DNA of 64,000 nt from Glaciibacter superstes DSM 21135 (GTDB lineage Bacteria; Actinomycetota; Actinomycetes; Actinomycetales; Microbacteriaceae). A program made the position numbers and the translations under genes. Of the stretch, positions 39,248 to 43,465 are shown in pieces; positions within the stretch are counted from its first letter, which is position 1; every line of letters begins with the position of its first letter. The notes beneath the pieces are model-generated. The model saw only the letters and a program-made list of their open reading frames with translations. It was not told where the DNA came from and searched no databases. Location: the NCBI RefSeq assembly GCF_000421145.1, contig NZ_ATWH01000002.1, positions 124,001 to 188,000 on the forward strand. Direction: 5' to 3'.

Positions 39248-40153
39248 TCAGGCAATCGGAGCGGTCATGCGACCAAGCTTGCCTGGGTTCATCATCCACA
39301 ACACCTGGTCGATGCCTTCCGCTGATGCCGTGATCGAGACGACGGCGAAGTCAATGCCGTCCCTCGAAAGCCGCACCGATGCCTGCCCATTGGCCAGGAC
39401 CGGAGCGACAGAGACGCCTTCCCAGAAGCGCGAGGCGAACGCGGTGATGTATTTCGAGACGTGGTCTCTCCCGAGCACAGGAATCCTGGACGCGCGAACC
39501 ACTCCGCCGCCGTCGGAGTAGCTGACGACATCTTCAGCGAGAAGTTCCTCGAGCGCCGCCAGGTTGCCGCTCTGGGCCGCGCCCACGAATGCGTCGAGCA
39601 GGCGTTGCTGCTCACTCGCGCTGACCGACGCGCGCCGCTCTTCTGCAAGGTGTTTGCGTGCCCGGCTGACCAATTGGCGTGAGCTGGCCTCTGTCTGCTG
39701 GATCACCTCAGCGATCTGCGAGTACGGGTAATCGAACGCCTCTCGCAGTACGTAGGCAGCCCGTTCCGTCGGCGAGAGTTTCTCCAGGATCAGCAGCACG
39801 GCGAATTCGAGCGCCTCACCGCGTTCGGCACCGAGCAGCGGGTCCGCACTGGTATCCACCGGTTCGGGGAGCCACGGTCCGATATAGGTTTCGCGTCGCA
39901 CCCGCGCTGACGTGACGGCGTTGATTGCGAGGCGGGTTGTTGTCGTCGCCAGGAAGGCGGCAGGGTCGCGAACGGTGCTGCGATCGTAGGTCTGCCATCG
40001 GATCCAGACCTCCTGCACGATGTCTTGCGCCTCGCTGGCGCTGCCGAGCATGCGGTAGGCGATTCCAAACAGTCGGGGACGGACAGTCGCGAATGTCGAC
40101 AGCGCACGCTCTATTTCAGACGCTGCGCTGGATTCGGCGGGCATACCGCTCAT
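39248..40153 (-). CDS. ECF41-type sigma factor with C-terminal SnoaL-like domain (SigJ-like)
   Basis: The 301-residue protein has sigma region 2 (about residues 25-90, L-F-G-I-A-Y-R-M-L-G-S) and region 4 (about 115-170, L-S-P-T-E-R-A-A-Y-V-L-R). These are followed by a SnoaL/NTF2-like domain with the ECF41 marks D-G-G-G (214-217) and N-P-G-K-L (289-293, usual form N-P-D-K-L). In this group the fused domain controls sigma activity instead of an anti-sigma factor. ATG 40153 lies 1 bp after the stop of the upstream gene, so the two are coupled. It probably reads the TGTCACA-N16-NGTC elements found at 42309 and 49671. Confidence 0.88.
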   Translation of the reverse strand: MSGMPAESSAASEIERALSTFATVRPRLFGIAYRMLGSASEAQDIVQEVWIRWQTYDRSTVRDPAAFLATTTTRLAINAVTSARVRRETYIGPWLPEPVDTSADPLLGAERGEALEFAVLLILEKLSPTERAAYVLREAFDYPYSQIAEVIQQTEASSRQLVSRARKHLAEERRASVSASEQQRLLDAFVGAAQSGNLAALEELLAEDVVSYSDGGGVVRASRIPVLGRDHVSKYITAFASRFWEGVSVAPVLANGQASVRLSRDGIDFAVVSITASAEGIDQVLWMMNPGKLGRMTAPIA

Positions 40154-40154
40154 C

Positions 40155-40574
40155 CTACTGACCATCCTGCGCCGGGTCACTGGCGTTCCAGCTGCGAAGC
40201 TTGTCGGGGTTCGCGACGACCCACAGCTCATGAATTCGATCAAAACGGATGCCAAGGGCTGCGACGCCGACGACGCATCCGTTATGTCGCACAACGAGAC
40301 CAGGCGCACCGTTGACAGACTGCTCGGCGATCGCCACGAGTGGAAGTCGCGCGAGCGTCGCGAAGATGACCCGCCCGACGAACTCACTGCCGCTGATCGG
40401 CGTCGACGGCGCGCGCACGCGGCCCCCTCCGTCGATGACGATCGTCACATCGGGGTCGAGGATGGCTGCCAGGGCAGTGGAGTCCGCGGCCTCGCACGCT
40501 TCCTGGAACGCGCGAACGATGTCACGGATACGATCGCGCTCCCCAGAGTCATCGGAGCTGCCGCTCATCGTCAT
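40155..40574 (-). CDS. Stand-alone SnoaL-like protein resembling the ECF41 regulatory domain
   Basis: The 139-residue NTF2-fold protein aligns along its length with the C-terminal domain of the sigma factor coded directly downstream. It keeps both marks in canonical form, D-G-G-G-R (48-52) and N-P-D-K-L (122-126). It starts inside the 3' end of the cytochrome b gene (26-bp overlap) and ends 1 bp before the sigma-factor ATG, so all three are one coupled unit. A free copy of the regulatory domain could compete with or tune the fused one, or bind a ligand. Both are inference. ATG 40568 is an alternative start. Confidence 0.75.
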   Translation of the reverse strand: MTMSGSSDDSGERDRIRDIVRAFQEACEAADSTALAAILDPDVTIVIDGGGRVRAPSTPISGSEFVGRVIFATLARLPLVAIAEQSVNGAPGLVVRHNGCVVGVAALGIRFDRIHELWVVANPDKLRSWNASDPAQDGQ

Positions 40575-42228
40575 GTGTTGCCTCATCGTCATGTGTGGCC
40601 TCGTCGCCACGTGTTGCCTCGACTCCATAGGCATGGTCCGTGGTCTCCAGTGCGACCTCTGGTACCGGTGCTACCCGGTCTTCAAAAAAGAACCGCGACA
40701 GTTGAGCCCGCAACCGCTGCGCCGTCGGCACCGCGCCACGTTCATCCGGTCGCAGTGCCAGGGGCGTGTGATCGGGTGCACGAGTGAGCCGCAATCGCTG
40801 GTATTCACCGATGGGCTTGTGCACCTCGATGTACTCGCCACCGGGAAGTCTCACGATTCGTCCGGTCTCGTATCCATGCAGGAGGAGCTCCCGGTCTTTC
40901 CGCTGCAGTGCGAGGCACACCCGTCGAGCGAGGATGAAGCCGATGGTCGGTCCGAGGACAACGAGCACCTGGAAGGAGAGCACCACCCCCTCGAGTGTCA
41001 GGTGGAAATGGGTCGTGATCACATCGGCGCTTCCTGCACCCCATAGAGCTCCGTAGAAGATGATTCCGGCCACCCCGACGCCGGTGCGTGTCGGAGTATC
41101 GCGGGGGCGGTCGAGGATGTGGTGTTCACGCCGGTCGCCGGTGATCCAGGACTCGATGAACGGATACGTGACCACGAACACCAAGAAGACCCCGACGAGC
41201 GCGAGCGGCGCCAGGATCGCGATCGTCCAGGTGTGGTCCAGCCACACGAACTCCCAGCCGGGAGGCACCAGGCGCAACGCCCCGTCGAGGAATCCGGTGT
41301 ACCAATCAGGCTGGCTGCCGGCAGACGCGTCGCCTGCGGCGGCCGGCCCGTACAGCCAGATCGGACTGACGGTGATCGTTGCCGAGATCAGGAACAAAAG
41401 GCCCATCACGATGAAGAGCAGACCGCCGGCTCTCGCGGCTGCGTTCGGCAGCATCGGAATGCCGACGACGTTGTCTTCTGTGCGCCCGATGCCCGCGAAC
41501 TGCGGGGGCTTCTGCGAATAGGCGACGGTGATGCGAACCGCGATGAAGGTGATCAGAAGGGCGGGGACGACGGCCACATGGATCGGATACAGGTGAGCGA
41601 TGATTTCGCCCGGGAACTCGCCGCCGAAGAGCAGCGTGGACAGCCAGGTGCCGATGAACGGGATGCCGAGAACGATTCCTTCGACGATCCGCAGGCCGGA
41701 TCCGGAGAGCATGTCGTCTGGCAGCGCGTACCCGCTCCAGCCGCCGATGAGCGCCACGAGGAAGATCAGGAACAGGAGCACCCAGTTTCCGCGTCGAGGT
41801 GTGCGGAAGCCGCCGGTGAAGTAGGTCGAGAGCAATTGCAGGATGAGCGAAGCAGGCAAGAGCAGGCCCGCCCAGTGGTGCGCCTGTCGCATGAGGAGAC
41901 CTCCGCGGATGTCGAAGGAGATGAACAACGTGGAGTCGAGGGCCTTCGACATCTCTGCGCCGTGGAGCGGCGAATACCCGCCGTCGTATTCGACGAGTGT
42001 GCTGGACGGAGTGTAGAAGAACATCAGAAAGAGCCCGGTGGCCATCAGCACGATGACGCACGCCAACGACACGACGCCGAACAGATTCGACCAGTGTGTT
42101 GGCACAGTTCGCCGCCGCAGTTGGGTGATCGCATCCGTCATCCGTTGCCCGAGCGCGGTCTGCTGCATCAGGTACGCCGACAGGCGTTCGCTGACGGAAG
42201 GAGGACGCGGTCTTCGGTCAGTGGGCAC
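40549..42228 (-). CDS. qcrB: Orphan QcrB-like cytochrome b lacking one pair of haem ligands
   Basis: The 559-residue membrane protein follows actinobacterial QcrB in order: helices with H117-H118-W, G-W-S-G-Y-A-L-P-D-D near 163, H217, Qo-site P-D-W-Y at 307-310, and C-terminal E-Y-I-E-V-H. Cytochrome b normally has a second His 14 residues after the first (helix B) and 14-15 after the one in helix D. Here these are Gln131 (codon 41836-41838) and Arg232 (41533-41535). Haem bH ligation thus seems lost while bL His remain. No qcrA, qcrC or oxidase genes are near. GTG 42228 is the assumed start. It leads the operon with the SnoaL-like and ECF41 genes. Confidence 0.85.
   Translation of the reverse strand: MPTDRRPRPPSVSERLSAYLMQQTALGQRMTDAITQLRRRTVPTHWSNLFGVVSLACVIVLMATGLFLMFFYTPSSTLVEYDGGYSPLHGAEMSKALDSTLFISFDIRGGLLMRQAHHWAGLLLPASLILQLLSTYFTGGFRTPRRGNWVLLFLIFLVALIGGWSGYALPDDMLSGSGLRIVEGIVLGIPFIGTWLSTLLFGGEFPGEIIAHLYPIHVAVVPALLITFIAVRITVAYSQKPPQFAGIGRTEDNVVGIPMLPNAAARAGGLLFIVMGLLFLISATITVSPIWLYGPAAAGDASAGSQPDWYTGFLDGALRLVPPGWEFVWLDHTWTIAILAPLALVGVFLVFVVTYPFIESWITGDRREHHILDRPRDTPTRTGVGVAGIIFYGALWGAGSADVITTHFHLTLEGVVLSFQVLVVLGPTIGFILARRVCLALQRKDRELLLHGYETGRIVRLPGGEYIEVHKPIGEYQRLRLTRAPDHTPLALRPDERGAVPTAQRLRAQLSRFFFEDRVAPVPEVALETTDHAYGVEATRGDEATHDDEATHDDERQLR
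40567..40620. repeat. 3 x 18 bp tandem repeat at the end of the cytochrome b gene
   Basis: Three 18-bp units on the minus strand encode E-A-T-R-G-D, E-A-T-H-D-D and E-A-T-H-D-D at the acidic C-terminus of the cytochrome b. The repeat also contains the start codon of the overlapping SnoaL-like gene, so each unit adds an ATG at regular spacing. Confidence 0.85.
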
Positions 42229-42272
42229 GAGGAGTACCGCAACGAATCTTGTGCATTGTGTCTTCCTTTTCT

Positions 42273-42314
42273 CTCTTCACTGACTAAGACAATCTCTTCA
42301 CTGATTAAGACAAT
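42273..42314. repeat. 2 x 21 bp tandem repeat in the cytochrome b leader
   Basis: Two 21-bp units (42273-42293 and 42294-42314, CTCTTCACTGAYTAAGACAAT) differ at one base. They lie 45-86 bp upstream of the cytochrome b start. The upstream copy includes the -10 part of the ECF41-type promoter. Two helical turns between copies would suit an activator or repressor, or a duplicated -10 element. Confidence 0.8.
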
Positions 42315-42335
42315 GCAGAACCCCGATTTGTGACA
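42309..42335 (-). promoter_or_regulatory. ECF41-type promoter of the qcrB-snoaL-sigma operon
   Basis: On the minus strand TGTCACA (42335-42329), exactly 16 bp, then TGTC (42312-42309) matches the ECF41 promoter pattern TGTCACA-N16-CGTC except for one base. It lies about 80 bp upstream of the cytochrome b start, giving a leader of roughly 74 nt. The last gene of the operon is an ECF41 sigma factor, so autoregulation is likely. Confidence 0.6.
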
Positions 42336-42556: not shown

Positions 42557-43465
42557 ATGCGCAACGAACCTACTTCTTCCAGCACGCCCGGCTCGCTCAG
42601 TACTGACACCGGTCCCACCCGGATTCAGAGAACCCATCGCCGTCGTGGCCGCCGCCGCTTCCTCGCAATCGGTGCCGTTGTCGCCGTTGGGGCGATGGTC
42701 GGCACTGGCTTCGTTCTCCAGTCTGCGGTGACAGCCCAAAGCGAGAGCATCGCCGCCACCCAGGCCCTGACTGACAGCACCGGCTTCCAGGCCGAGCAGC
42801 TCGAGGGGCGGAGCGCGGTCCTGGCGGCTCACGCAGAGCACAGCGCAAAGGGCGCTATCGCCGGCGCCAACGCCGTCATCACCTCCGCGCAGGGAAAGAC
42901 GGATGCCACGGTCCTTTCTACGACCGTCGCGTCCCTCAACTACTTCCCGCTCCTGGCGCCAGAACGCGTGTTCGAACTGGTGGAAGTAACTGCAACCCAG
43001 GCGGCGAGCGTTCAGGCGGCCACGGCCGAAGTTGACCGGGTTGCCACAGAGCAGGTCGCTGCGGATGCGGCAGCCGCCCAGGCCGCTGCCGCTGCTGCTG
43101 CCGCTGCGGAGGAGGCCGGGGACAGCGCTTCGTCCTCCCGTCCGTCGGCGCCGAGCAACCCCACTGAGGCGCAAGCCATCGCGCGCGATCTCATGGCGTC
43201 GCTCTATGGCTGGGGCGACGACCAGTTCGGCTGCCTTGTGCCGCTGTGGCAGAAGGAATCCGGCTGGAACGTGAACGCGTACAACGCCTCGAGCGGTGCC
43301 ACCGGCATCCCACAGGCCCTGCCCGGCAGCAAGATGGCCTCGGCCGGCGACGACTGGCAGACCAACCCGGCCACCCAGATCACGTGGGGGCTCGGTTACA
43401 TCGCGGGGCGCTACGGTACACCGTGTGACGCCTGGGATCACTCCGAGTCGGCCGGCTGGTACTAA
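42557..43465 (+). CDS. Secreted lytic-transglycosylase-like cell wall protein
   Basis: The 302-residue protein has a basic N-terminus and one hydrophobic helix (about residues 35-60), then a long Ala-rich helical or coiled region to residue 190. The C-terminal domain reads W-Q-K-E-S-G-W-N-V-N-A-Y-N-A-S-S-G-A-T-G-I-P-Q, the lysozyme-like catalytic segment with Glu of K-E-S-G-W. This domain is common in actinobacterial transglycosylase-like and aggregation-promoting-factor proteins that remodel peptidoglycan. No good ribosome-binding site is seen before the ATG. Confidence 0.87.
   Translation: MRNEPTSSSTPGSLSTDTGPTRIQRTHRRRGRRRFLAIGAVVAVGAMVGTGFVLQSAVTAQSESIAATQALTDSTGFQAEQLEGRSAVLAAHAEHSAKGAIAGANAVITSAQGKTDATVLSTTVASLNYFPLLAPERVFELVEVTATQAASVQAATAEVDRVATEQVAADAAAAQAAAAAAAAAEEAGDSASSSRPSAPSNPTEAQAIARDLMASLYGWGDDQFGCLVPLWQKESGWNVNAYNASSGATGIPQALPGSKMASAGDDWQTNPATQITWGLGYIAGRYGTPCDAWDHSESAGWY

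Follow-up and report, generated by a model that had tools for sequence, protein, structure and literature searches.

The stretch of DNA considered here, hereafter the window, comprises 64,000 nucleotides of the Glaciibacter superstes DSM 21135 genome (contig NZ_ATWH01000002.1, positions 124,001 to 188,000), and carries a gene for a paralogue of QcrB, the cytochrome b subunit of the actinobacterial bcc complex (complex III). Judged from its sequence, the protein has kept the ligands of haem bL and lost those of haem bH, and it belongs to a conserved actinobacterial QcrB subfamily, here called QcrB2. Eighty-eight non-redundant members from at least six actinobacterial families were collected and compared with 43 canonical QcrB sequences. 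The gene and the positions that distinguish it are as follows:

40549..42228, minus strand: qcrB2, cytochrome b paralogue of 559 amino acids; GTG start at 42226-42228, stop at 40549-40551; NCBIfam bc1_QcrB_actin
41878..41880, minus strand: His117, haem bL ligand, retained; His in 88/88 QcrB2
41836..41838 (CAA), minus strand: Gln131, replacing the bH histidine of helix B; Gln in 83 and His in 5 of 88 QcrB2
41827..41829, minus strand: Ser134, replacing an invariant arginine three residues past the helix B ligand; Arg in 43/43 canonical QcrB and 0/88 QcrB2
41773..41775, minus strand: Leu152, replacing an invariant glycine on the cytoplasmic side of helix C; among 88 QcrB2 Leu 82, Ala 3, Val 2, Gly 1, canonical Gly 43/43
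41578..41580, minus strand: His217, haem bL ligand, retained; His in 88/88 QcrB2
41533..41535 (CGC), minus strand: Arg232, replacing the bH histidine of helix D; in 87 readable members Arg 80, Tyr 4, Trp 1, Ser 1, Leu 1
41299..41310, minus strand: PDWY motif, residues 307-310, of the quinol-oxidation (QP/Qo) site; P, D, W and Y each in 85/85 readable QcrB2

The missing ligands of haem bH

In bc1-type cytochrome b, haem bH lies towards the cytoplasm and is ligated by the residues at the positions of Gln131 and Arg232. We take their bovine equivalents to be His97 and His196, and Ser134 presumably stands at the position of the bH propionate arginine (bovine Arg100). A first-pass annotation of the window, made from its letters alone, had drawn attention to these substitutions and to the retained His117, His217 and PDWY motif, and both observations held, as the coordinates, strand and codons are exact and the retained features are invariant across the readable QcrB2. 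It had also allowed that histidines might reappear once the register was corrected, which they did not. A register error as the cause of the ligand loss is ruled out by alignments to solved chains and to canonical QcrB: against three solved QcrB chains helix B is free of gaps, the histidines of those chains lie opposite residues 131 and 232, and the alignments contain just one or two 1-residue gaps, in the loop preceding helix D. The QcrB of this genome's main locus, with which a comparison had been advised, is 55% identical and reads H-H-H-H at the four ligand positions (117, 131, 217 and 232, the order used below).

The window protein is recognisable as a QcrB by several measures. It scores 570.5 bits against NCBIfam NF050120 (cut-off 500), passes the Pfam cut-offs of PF13631 and PF00033, and contains the P-[DE]-W-Y motif; of the two histidine pairs that mark bc1-type cytochromes b it has the bL pair, the bH pair being Gln131/Arg232. 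Furthermore, an AlphaFold2 model (36 sequences) with a predicted local distance difference test (pLDDT) score of 84.4, falling below 50 at residues 289-305, has the cytochrome b fold, with Z scores of 39-45 against mycobacterial and corynebacterial QcrB (on 9gy6_B, Z 45.1 and root-mean-square deviation 2.9 over 467 aligned residues).

Extent of the QcrB2 subfamily

Two QcrB matches are present in this genome alone among 57 of the window's genus. Among 398 genomes of its family, 20 others hold a copy that outscores every canonical QcrB, 19 of these copies reading H-Q-H-R and one H-H-H-Y; the frequency is a lower bound, with two further genomes (G102 and G457) also carrying QcrB2. Aligning the family copies with the 43 canonical QcrB yielded a diagnostic stretch of helix C and from it a DNA pattern (W-[ST]-G-Y-A-L-P-D-D-like codons, excluding the ligand positions) that was used to scan one genome for each of 84,980 species. 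The scan, which misses members without the motif, returned 77 matches, all QcrB-like by tblastn and none with four histidines, and merging the sets after removal of 10 duplicates gave the 88 members. Family labels, available for 67 members, are Microbacteriaceae (42), Promicromonosporaceae (18), Cellulomonadaceae (2), Propionibacteriaceae (2), Nocardioidaceae (2) and Micromonosporaceae (1).

Conservation of the Gln/Arg pair among orphan homologues, which the first-pass annotation had left to be checked, was found, with H-Q-H-R in 79/88 members. The others comprise four H-H-H-Y, one each of H-Q-H-W, H-Q-H-S, H-H-H-R and H-Q-H-L, and one sequence truncated before the last ligand. H-H-H-H occurs in 0/88 QcrB2, and position 232 is non-histidine in all 87 members where it can be read, whereas the canonical set (30 sequences from the window's genus, seven from its family and six from plasmids) is H-H-H-H in 43/43.

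Residues lost and retained

Across the subfamily, the sequences indicate that the bH ligands have been replaced in most QcrB2, the adjoining arginine in all and the residues of the QN quinone site in most, with the bL ligands, the QP motif and the C-terminal part retained. The loss of one haem site proposed by the first-pass annotation is thus borne out by sequence, and the site concerned is that of bH. The location of haem bH and of the QN site, and the QN-site residues of Mycobacterium tuberculosis QcrB (Phe39, Glu49, Leu232 and Phe262), are taken from PMC8616580. The QcrB2 equivalents of these four, counted by hand from a solved-chain alignment, are changed in most members: position 52 is Glu, position 263 Tyr and position 42 Phe in 4/88 each, and the window protein has Val, Ala and Val, respectively. 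The equivalents of M. tuberculosis Leu225 and Trp236 vary among canonical QcrB as well and are uninformative. Ligand positions aside, no site in the halves of helices B and D on the N (cytoplasmic) side carries a His, Met, Cys, Lys or Tyr in as many as half of the members, the commonest such residue being His239 (33/87).

The distribution of retained residues was compared in 21 QcrB2. Residues invariant in canonical QcrB are held by the majority of these at 20/22 positions in the CD loop, 19/20 in the EF loop, 9/9 in the half of helix B on the P (periplasmic) side and 26/27 in the C-terminal part; the corresponding figures in the N halves are 0/3 for helix C, 0/2 for helix D and 2/6 for helix A. 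Arg114 and glycines 65 and 166 are each retained in 88/88. Five QP-side residues are peculiar to QcrB2 in the 21 members, namely Trp164, Ala168, Ser305, Thr311 and Leu314. At position 57 in helix A (window 42058-42060), Cys is found in 61/88 QcrB2, and Ser in 41/43 canonical sequences.

Selection and history

The ratio of non-synonymous to synonymous substitution rates (dN/dS) was 0.10-0.22 in nine close QcrB2 pairs, two of which cover part of the gene, indicating purifying selection. A decaying qcrB duplicate is scarcely credible as an explanation: the second copy occurs in just one of the 57 genus genomes and is therefore dispensable, but the 88 members share their substitutions, the dN/dS values are low, and the gene has a promoter and an operon structure. 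For the subfamily as a whole, pseudogene status is ruled out by dN/dS and conservation. One member (L200/L161) appears broken by a frame change.

A quick maximum-likelihood tree (LG+G4, SH-aLRT support alone, the two ligand columns masked) was built from 87 QcrB2 (the short row L164 was omitted) and from 15 canonical sequences out of the 43. In it the four H-H-H-Y members are sister to 82 others (supports 97, 99 and 100), with the window sequence as the first branch inside the main group; outermost lies an Actinoplanes sequence, H-Q-H-S, on a long branch, the root branch being weak (42). The H-H-H-Y members hold Glu52, Tyr56 and Tyr263, but not Phe42, and this sister clade looks intermediate. 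Its position and its retained QN residues would fit a stepwise loss, the helix D ligand going first and the helix B ligand and QN pocket afterwards, which is a reading from one quick tree and not proof. Single ligand positions also drift, as seen in the H-H-H-R and H-Q-H-W/S/L members.

A candidate ECF41-type promoter and a sigma factor gene

The qcrB2 gene is preceded by a promoter-like sequence and followed by two genes in the same direction, the last of which encodes a sigma factor of the extracytoplasmic function (ECF) class:

42309..42335, minus strand: candidate ECF41-type promoter, by sequence, TGTCACA-N16-TGTC; near the published consensus, one -10 base different
42272..42313, minus strand: 21-bp tandem duplication repeating the -10-like TGTC, between promoter and start codon
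40155..40574, minus strand: small SnoaL-like protein of about 139 amino acids, start likely at 40574 or 40568, overlapping the 3' end of qcrB2
39248..40153, minus strand: ECF41/SigJ-type sigma factor, ATG at 40153, start inferred; TIGR02957 336.6 bits, cut-off 323.25 (longer frame scored)

The likely ATG of the sigma factor gene lies one base past the stop of the SnoaL-like gene. The SnoaL-like protein has no Pfam match above cut-off and, in a single comparison, is 30% identical (E 1e-9) to the C-terminal domain of the adjacent sigma factor, whose own C-terminus scores 20.8 bits against SnoaL_2, under the cut-off of 27. It could act in trans on that sigma factor, and similar small proteins are found near qcrB2 in some relatives.

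The published ECF41 consensus is TGTCACA-n16-CGTC (PMC3426412). Within 250 nt upstream of qcrB2, or of the ndh2 gene upstream of it, TGTCAC-N16-18-[CT]GTC (a pattern that allows the window's own -10 variant, applied with script-chosen start codons) was found in 34/85 loci, compared to 0.5 expected from order-1 shuffles, comprising 27/49 loci without the type II NADH dehydrogenase (NDH-2) paralogue described below and 7/36 loci with it. In the window genome a tighter form of the pattern has two matches and the reversed control also two, so that the motif is convincing by its placement across loci and not by rarity. The other tighter-form match lies upstream of an epimerase-family gene, and ECF41 factors control genes of the epimerase kind (the COE targets: decarboxylase, oxidoreductase and epimerase; PMC3426412). 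No COE gene adjacent to the sigma factor was found among the adjacent window genes scanned; in relatives, NmrA/short-chain dehydrogenase/reductase (SDR) genes recur near qcrB2. A sigma factor match above 100 bits lies near 25/88 QcrB2 loci, with flanks of unequal length.

Since such a promoter precedes the gene or operon in 34/85 loci, qcrB2 looks like an ECF41 target and seems to be switched on by a stress-type (ECF41-type) sigma factor. The first-pass annotation had placed qcrB2 in an operon with a sigma factor; the downstream sigma gene and its direction are real, but the gene looks like a target of such a factor and not evidently its sensor.

Three smaller features surround the start of the gene. 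The 21-bp duplication follows closely on the -35 element, and its second TGTC copy, if used, would alter the promoter spacing. A 12-codon open reading frame (42218-42256) with its ATG at 42256, after a GGAAG-like site, overlaps the qcrB2 GTG start in another frame and may be a coupling leader. A divergent gene (42557-43465, plus strand) gives a weak transglycosylase SLT match of 20.1 bits, under the cut-off of 21.3.

An NDH-2 paralogue as partner

The commonest partner gene found at QcrB2 loci encodes a Pyr_redox_2 protein nearest to NDH-2, which lies directly upstream of qcrB2 in 31/72 loci with at least 1400 nt upstream, and in 36 in all. By script calls the two genes overlap at 36/36 junctions; the overlap is 11 nt in 25 of these, and in the four longest cases (56-170 nt) it probably reflects start calls. 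The paralogue matches the NDH-2 structure 5na1 (E 6.1e-33), and its motifs are intact where readable (FAD 31/36, NADH 34/36, AQxAxQ 35/36); its scores set it apart from the family's universal NDH-2, from which it differs at fixed positions. The window genome has one NDH-2 match, of the universal type, and lacks the paralogue.

Eleven further paralogue loci were found, of which two adjoin qcrB2 and eight have an ECF sigma factor next (34-37% identical to the query); one genome (G362) has both genes far apart. In the eight loci without qcrB2 (L195, L198, L199 and L201-L205), where the paralogue is followed by the ECF sigma factor, SDR genes are also present in 7/8. The NDH-2 paralogue is thus itself an ECF-linked oxidoreductase. 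Three genomes carry two QcrB2 copies each (L159/L184, L180/L193 and L178/L192); in two of them the paralogue lies directly upstream of one copy and not the other, and L193 has the paralogue downstream.

Canonical complex III genes in the host genomes

The window genome (4.8 Mb, 38 contigs) holds one other QcrB, the canonical copy, beside qcrA and qcrC and about 248 kb from the window gene on the same contig. As the first-pass annotation had stated, no Rieske or cytochrome c gene lies near qcrB2: searching the window with this genome's own QcrA, QcrC and CtaE gave no homologue at E 1e-3, CtaE being the one oxidase subunit searched for. QcrB2 is thus not encoded with qcrC and qcrA. In 7/7 QcrB2 genomes tested (E 1e-8), one QcrC and one full-length QcrA were found, and a dedicated second Rieske protein or cytochrome cc was rejected on this basis; three of the seven contain a further Rieske-like stretch of just 36-42 bits. 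Among 21 QcrB2 genomes a second QcrB match is present in 20 (in G337, G302, G136 and G432 as a count only), and in G436 the canonical copy is in two pieces. One genome (G085 C1:1308610-1312014; L209, L211) has two tandem canonical-type QcrB and a separate QcrB2.

Proposed role and alternatives

The preferred, though tentative, reading of these comparisons is that QcrB2 would be an ECF41-induced, menaquinol-oxidising cytochrome b without its own Q cycle, most likely borrowing the cell's QcrA and QcrC. An ECF41 signal would lead to QcrB2 being made, and the protein would then oxidise menaquinol at its QP site, most likely together with the cell's QcrA (Rieske) and QcrC. With no bH to receive them, electrons from bL would have either to reach the bL of a normal QcrB partner within a mixed dimer or to exit by a bypass, and a QcrB2 homodimer would stall at bL unless electrons left by a bypass or to oxygen. 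Pairing with a non-pumping NDH-2 would give an inducible respiratory branch of low proton coupling, in which the partner in the window's organism would be the ordinary NDH-2. The claim of the first-pass annotation that this protein cannot run a normal Q cycle stands in this sense, that a self-contained Q cycle would be impossible for QcrB2 alone with its bH site lost by sequence. A bolder version, which we regard as unlikely, has QcrB2 as a natural bH knock-out subunit that, on an ECF41 signal, pairs with ordinary QcrB to form mixed dimers. Complex III would then be asymmetric, electrons from one quinol site having to pass from bL to bL, and there would in addition be a switch to a non-pumping NADH dehydrogenase. 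Laboratory precedent exists in the haem bH knock-out H212N (PMC4807273). When one half of a fused dimer carries this change, the dimer assembles and electrons pass from bL to bL (PMC4330944).

Several points weigh against the borrowing of QcrA and QcrC by a menaquinol-oxidising QcrB2. No QcrA, QcrC or CtaE gene was found in the flanking sequence of any QcrB2 locus (in 60/88 loci both flanks reach 1000 nt or more), so that sharing of QcrA and QcrC is conjecture. When both halves carry H212N, fused dimers did not assemble (PMC4330944). Fifty-one of the 85 testable loci are without the promoter pattern, including all but seven of the 36 NDH-2-linked ones, and the distance from promoter to start codon, 53-59 nt in 19/27 cases where qcrB2 comes first, is 107 nt in the window, part of the extra length being the 21-bp tandem duplication. 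Moreover, 41/72 loci, the window included, are without an NDH-2 paralogue upstream. The loss of residues is not cleanly one-sided: with helix limits set by hand, and with invariance gauged mostly on close kin of the window's organism, the FG loop on the N side holds 16/17 canonical invariants and the BC loop 7/10, while the P halves of helices A, D and E hold just 2/4, 3/6 and 2/4. Glycine 51, which we take to be the second bH-side glycine and one of the paired glycines of the bovine comparison, is retained in 83/88 QcrB2. Lastly, quinol oxidation at the QP site is itself uncertain, because Trp164, Ala168, Ser305, Thr311 and Leu314 differ nearby.

It is possible, if doubtful, that QcrB2 and the NDH-2 paralogue form a two-protein redox unit without QcrA or QcrC, in which electrons would pass from NADH to menaquinone on the cytoplasmic face, then to bL and on to a periplasmic acceptor or oxygen, possibly yielding superoxide. 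The frequency of this partner, the overlap of its frame with qcrB2 and the available flanks free of Rieske and cytochrome c genes would all suit such a unit, as would the new conserved polar residues near the former bH site (Gln131, Arg232 and often Cys57). However, the CD and EF loops, which in canonical complexes line the quinol site and dock the Rieske protein, are among the best-retained parts, something difficult to account for if no Rieske partner exists, and the loci without the paralogue upstream, together with a window genome that has the universal NDH-2 alone, also argue against it. The view of the first-pass annotation, a one-haem quinone or redox sensor feeding the ECF41-type sigma factor, is possible but less likely. 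It draws on the window's downstream sigma gene, in the same direction with the SnoaL-like protein between, and on the sigma factor matches near other loci, but it received no direct support: the promoter makes qcrB2 look like a target, and control of ECF41 factors is attributed to the C-terminal domain fused to them (PMC3426412, PMC8999054). The constraint on the QP motif, bL ligands and C-terminal part, together with NDH-2 as the commonest partner, points to electron transfer, and to turnover over sensing.

Two further explanations appear improbable. The bH site might still hold a haem with unusual ligands (Gln/Arg, or His/Tyr in the sister clade), given that a cytochrome b whose bH has His-Lys ligands is functional (PMC4807273), that the four H-H-H-Y members retain His131 and some QN residues, and that glycine 51 is mostly kept; against this, both ligands, the adjoining arginine (88/88) and the helix C glycine (Leu in 82/88) have changed together, and no alternative ligand on the N side of helices B and D is shared by as many as half of the members. 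Equally, QcrB2 might be a decoy or inhibitor-insensitive target, its QP site serving to bind natural inhibitors of complex III or to shield the main complex. Inhibitors of the QP site do contact this region (PMC8616580) and the QP-side residues conserved in QcrB2 are peculiar to it, but the neighbours identified as recurrent (sigma factor, NDH-2, SDR, SnoaL-like protein and hydrolases) are not biosynthetic or export genes, though there are further neighbour clusters of 2-5 loci, and a decoy would leave the ECF41 and NDH-2 linkage unexplained.

Relation to known systems

Compared to actinobacterial bcc QcrB (NF050120; PDB 7q21, 6adq and 9gy6), QcrB2 has the same fold, a similar length, the bL ligands, PDWY and the C-terminal part, but it lacks the bH histidine pair and the adjoining arginine, has an altered QN pocket, is without adjacent qcrC and qcrA, has a candidate ECF41-type promoter and is additional to a normal QcrB. 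The nearest laboratory counterpart is the H212N variant of Rhodobacter capsulatus, in which a bH histidine ligand is lost and the bH/Qi branch is inactive, with Qo and bL remaining (PMC4807273, PMC4330944); that is a man-made single change, whereas QcrB2 is a natural, separate gene in which both ligands and further bH/QN residues are changed. ECF41 systems resemble the locus in their SigJ/SigX4-type sigma factor and promoter (PMC3426412) and, in relatives, in the nearby NmrA/SDR ('epimerase') and Pyr_redox_2 ('oxidoreductase') proteins of the COE classes. The apparent target here is, unlike theirs, a cytochrome b, and the word 'cytochrome' occurs 0 times in the main text of PMC3426412. The upstream partner in relatives resembles NDH-2 (PDB 5na1) in its motifs but is distinct from the universal enzyme in score and at fixed positions, and is absent from the window genome.

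In the open-licence literature no description was found of a natural bH-less QcrB, of a QcrB under ECF41 control or of an NDH-2/QcrB operon, a laboratory knock-out paper being the sole return of one search. Engineered bH knock-outs have served to study how electrons pass between the two bL haems of complex III and what follows from running half a Q cycle. QcrB2 would offer a comparable lesion in a family that arose naturally and is under selection, along with a probable intermediate clade and a candidate regulator, testable in organisms that use it (named hosts include Agromyces, Leifsonia, Microbacterium and Promicromonospora). ECF41 factors, whose signals are given as unknown in PMC3426412, would also gain a respiratory protein among their targets. 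If the mixed dimer is true, complex III would be re-wired by swapping one subunit.

Solitary qcrB genes on plasmids provide a further comparison, being likewise QcrB paralogues, with no Rieske or cytochrome c gene listed within 6 kb in 5/6 regions (from an incomplete gene table). As a source of QcrB2 they were rejected: six of 55 records were examined and all read H-H-H-H, unlike QcrB2, and a solitary life is thus not by itself tied to bH loss. On a Microbacterium plasmid, Rieske and c-type cytochrome genes adjoin qcrB. Three Streptomyces linear plasmids (L035, L037 and L038) carry a solitary four-histidine QcrB followed by a DUF3099 gene, in L035 beside phenazine-type genes.

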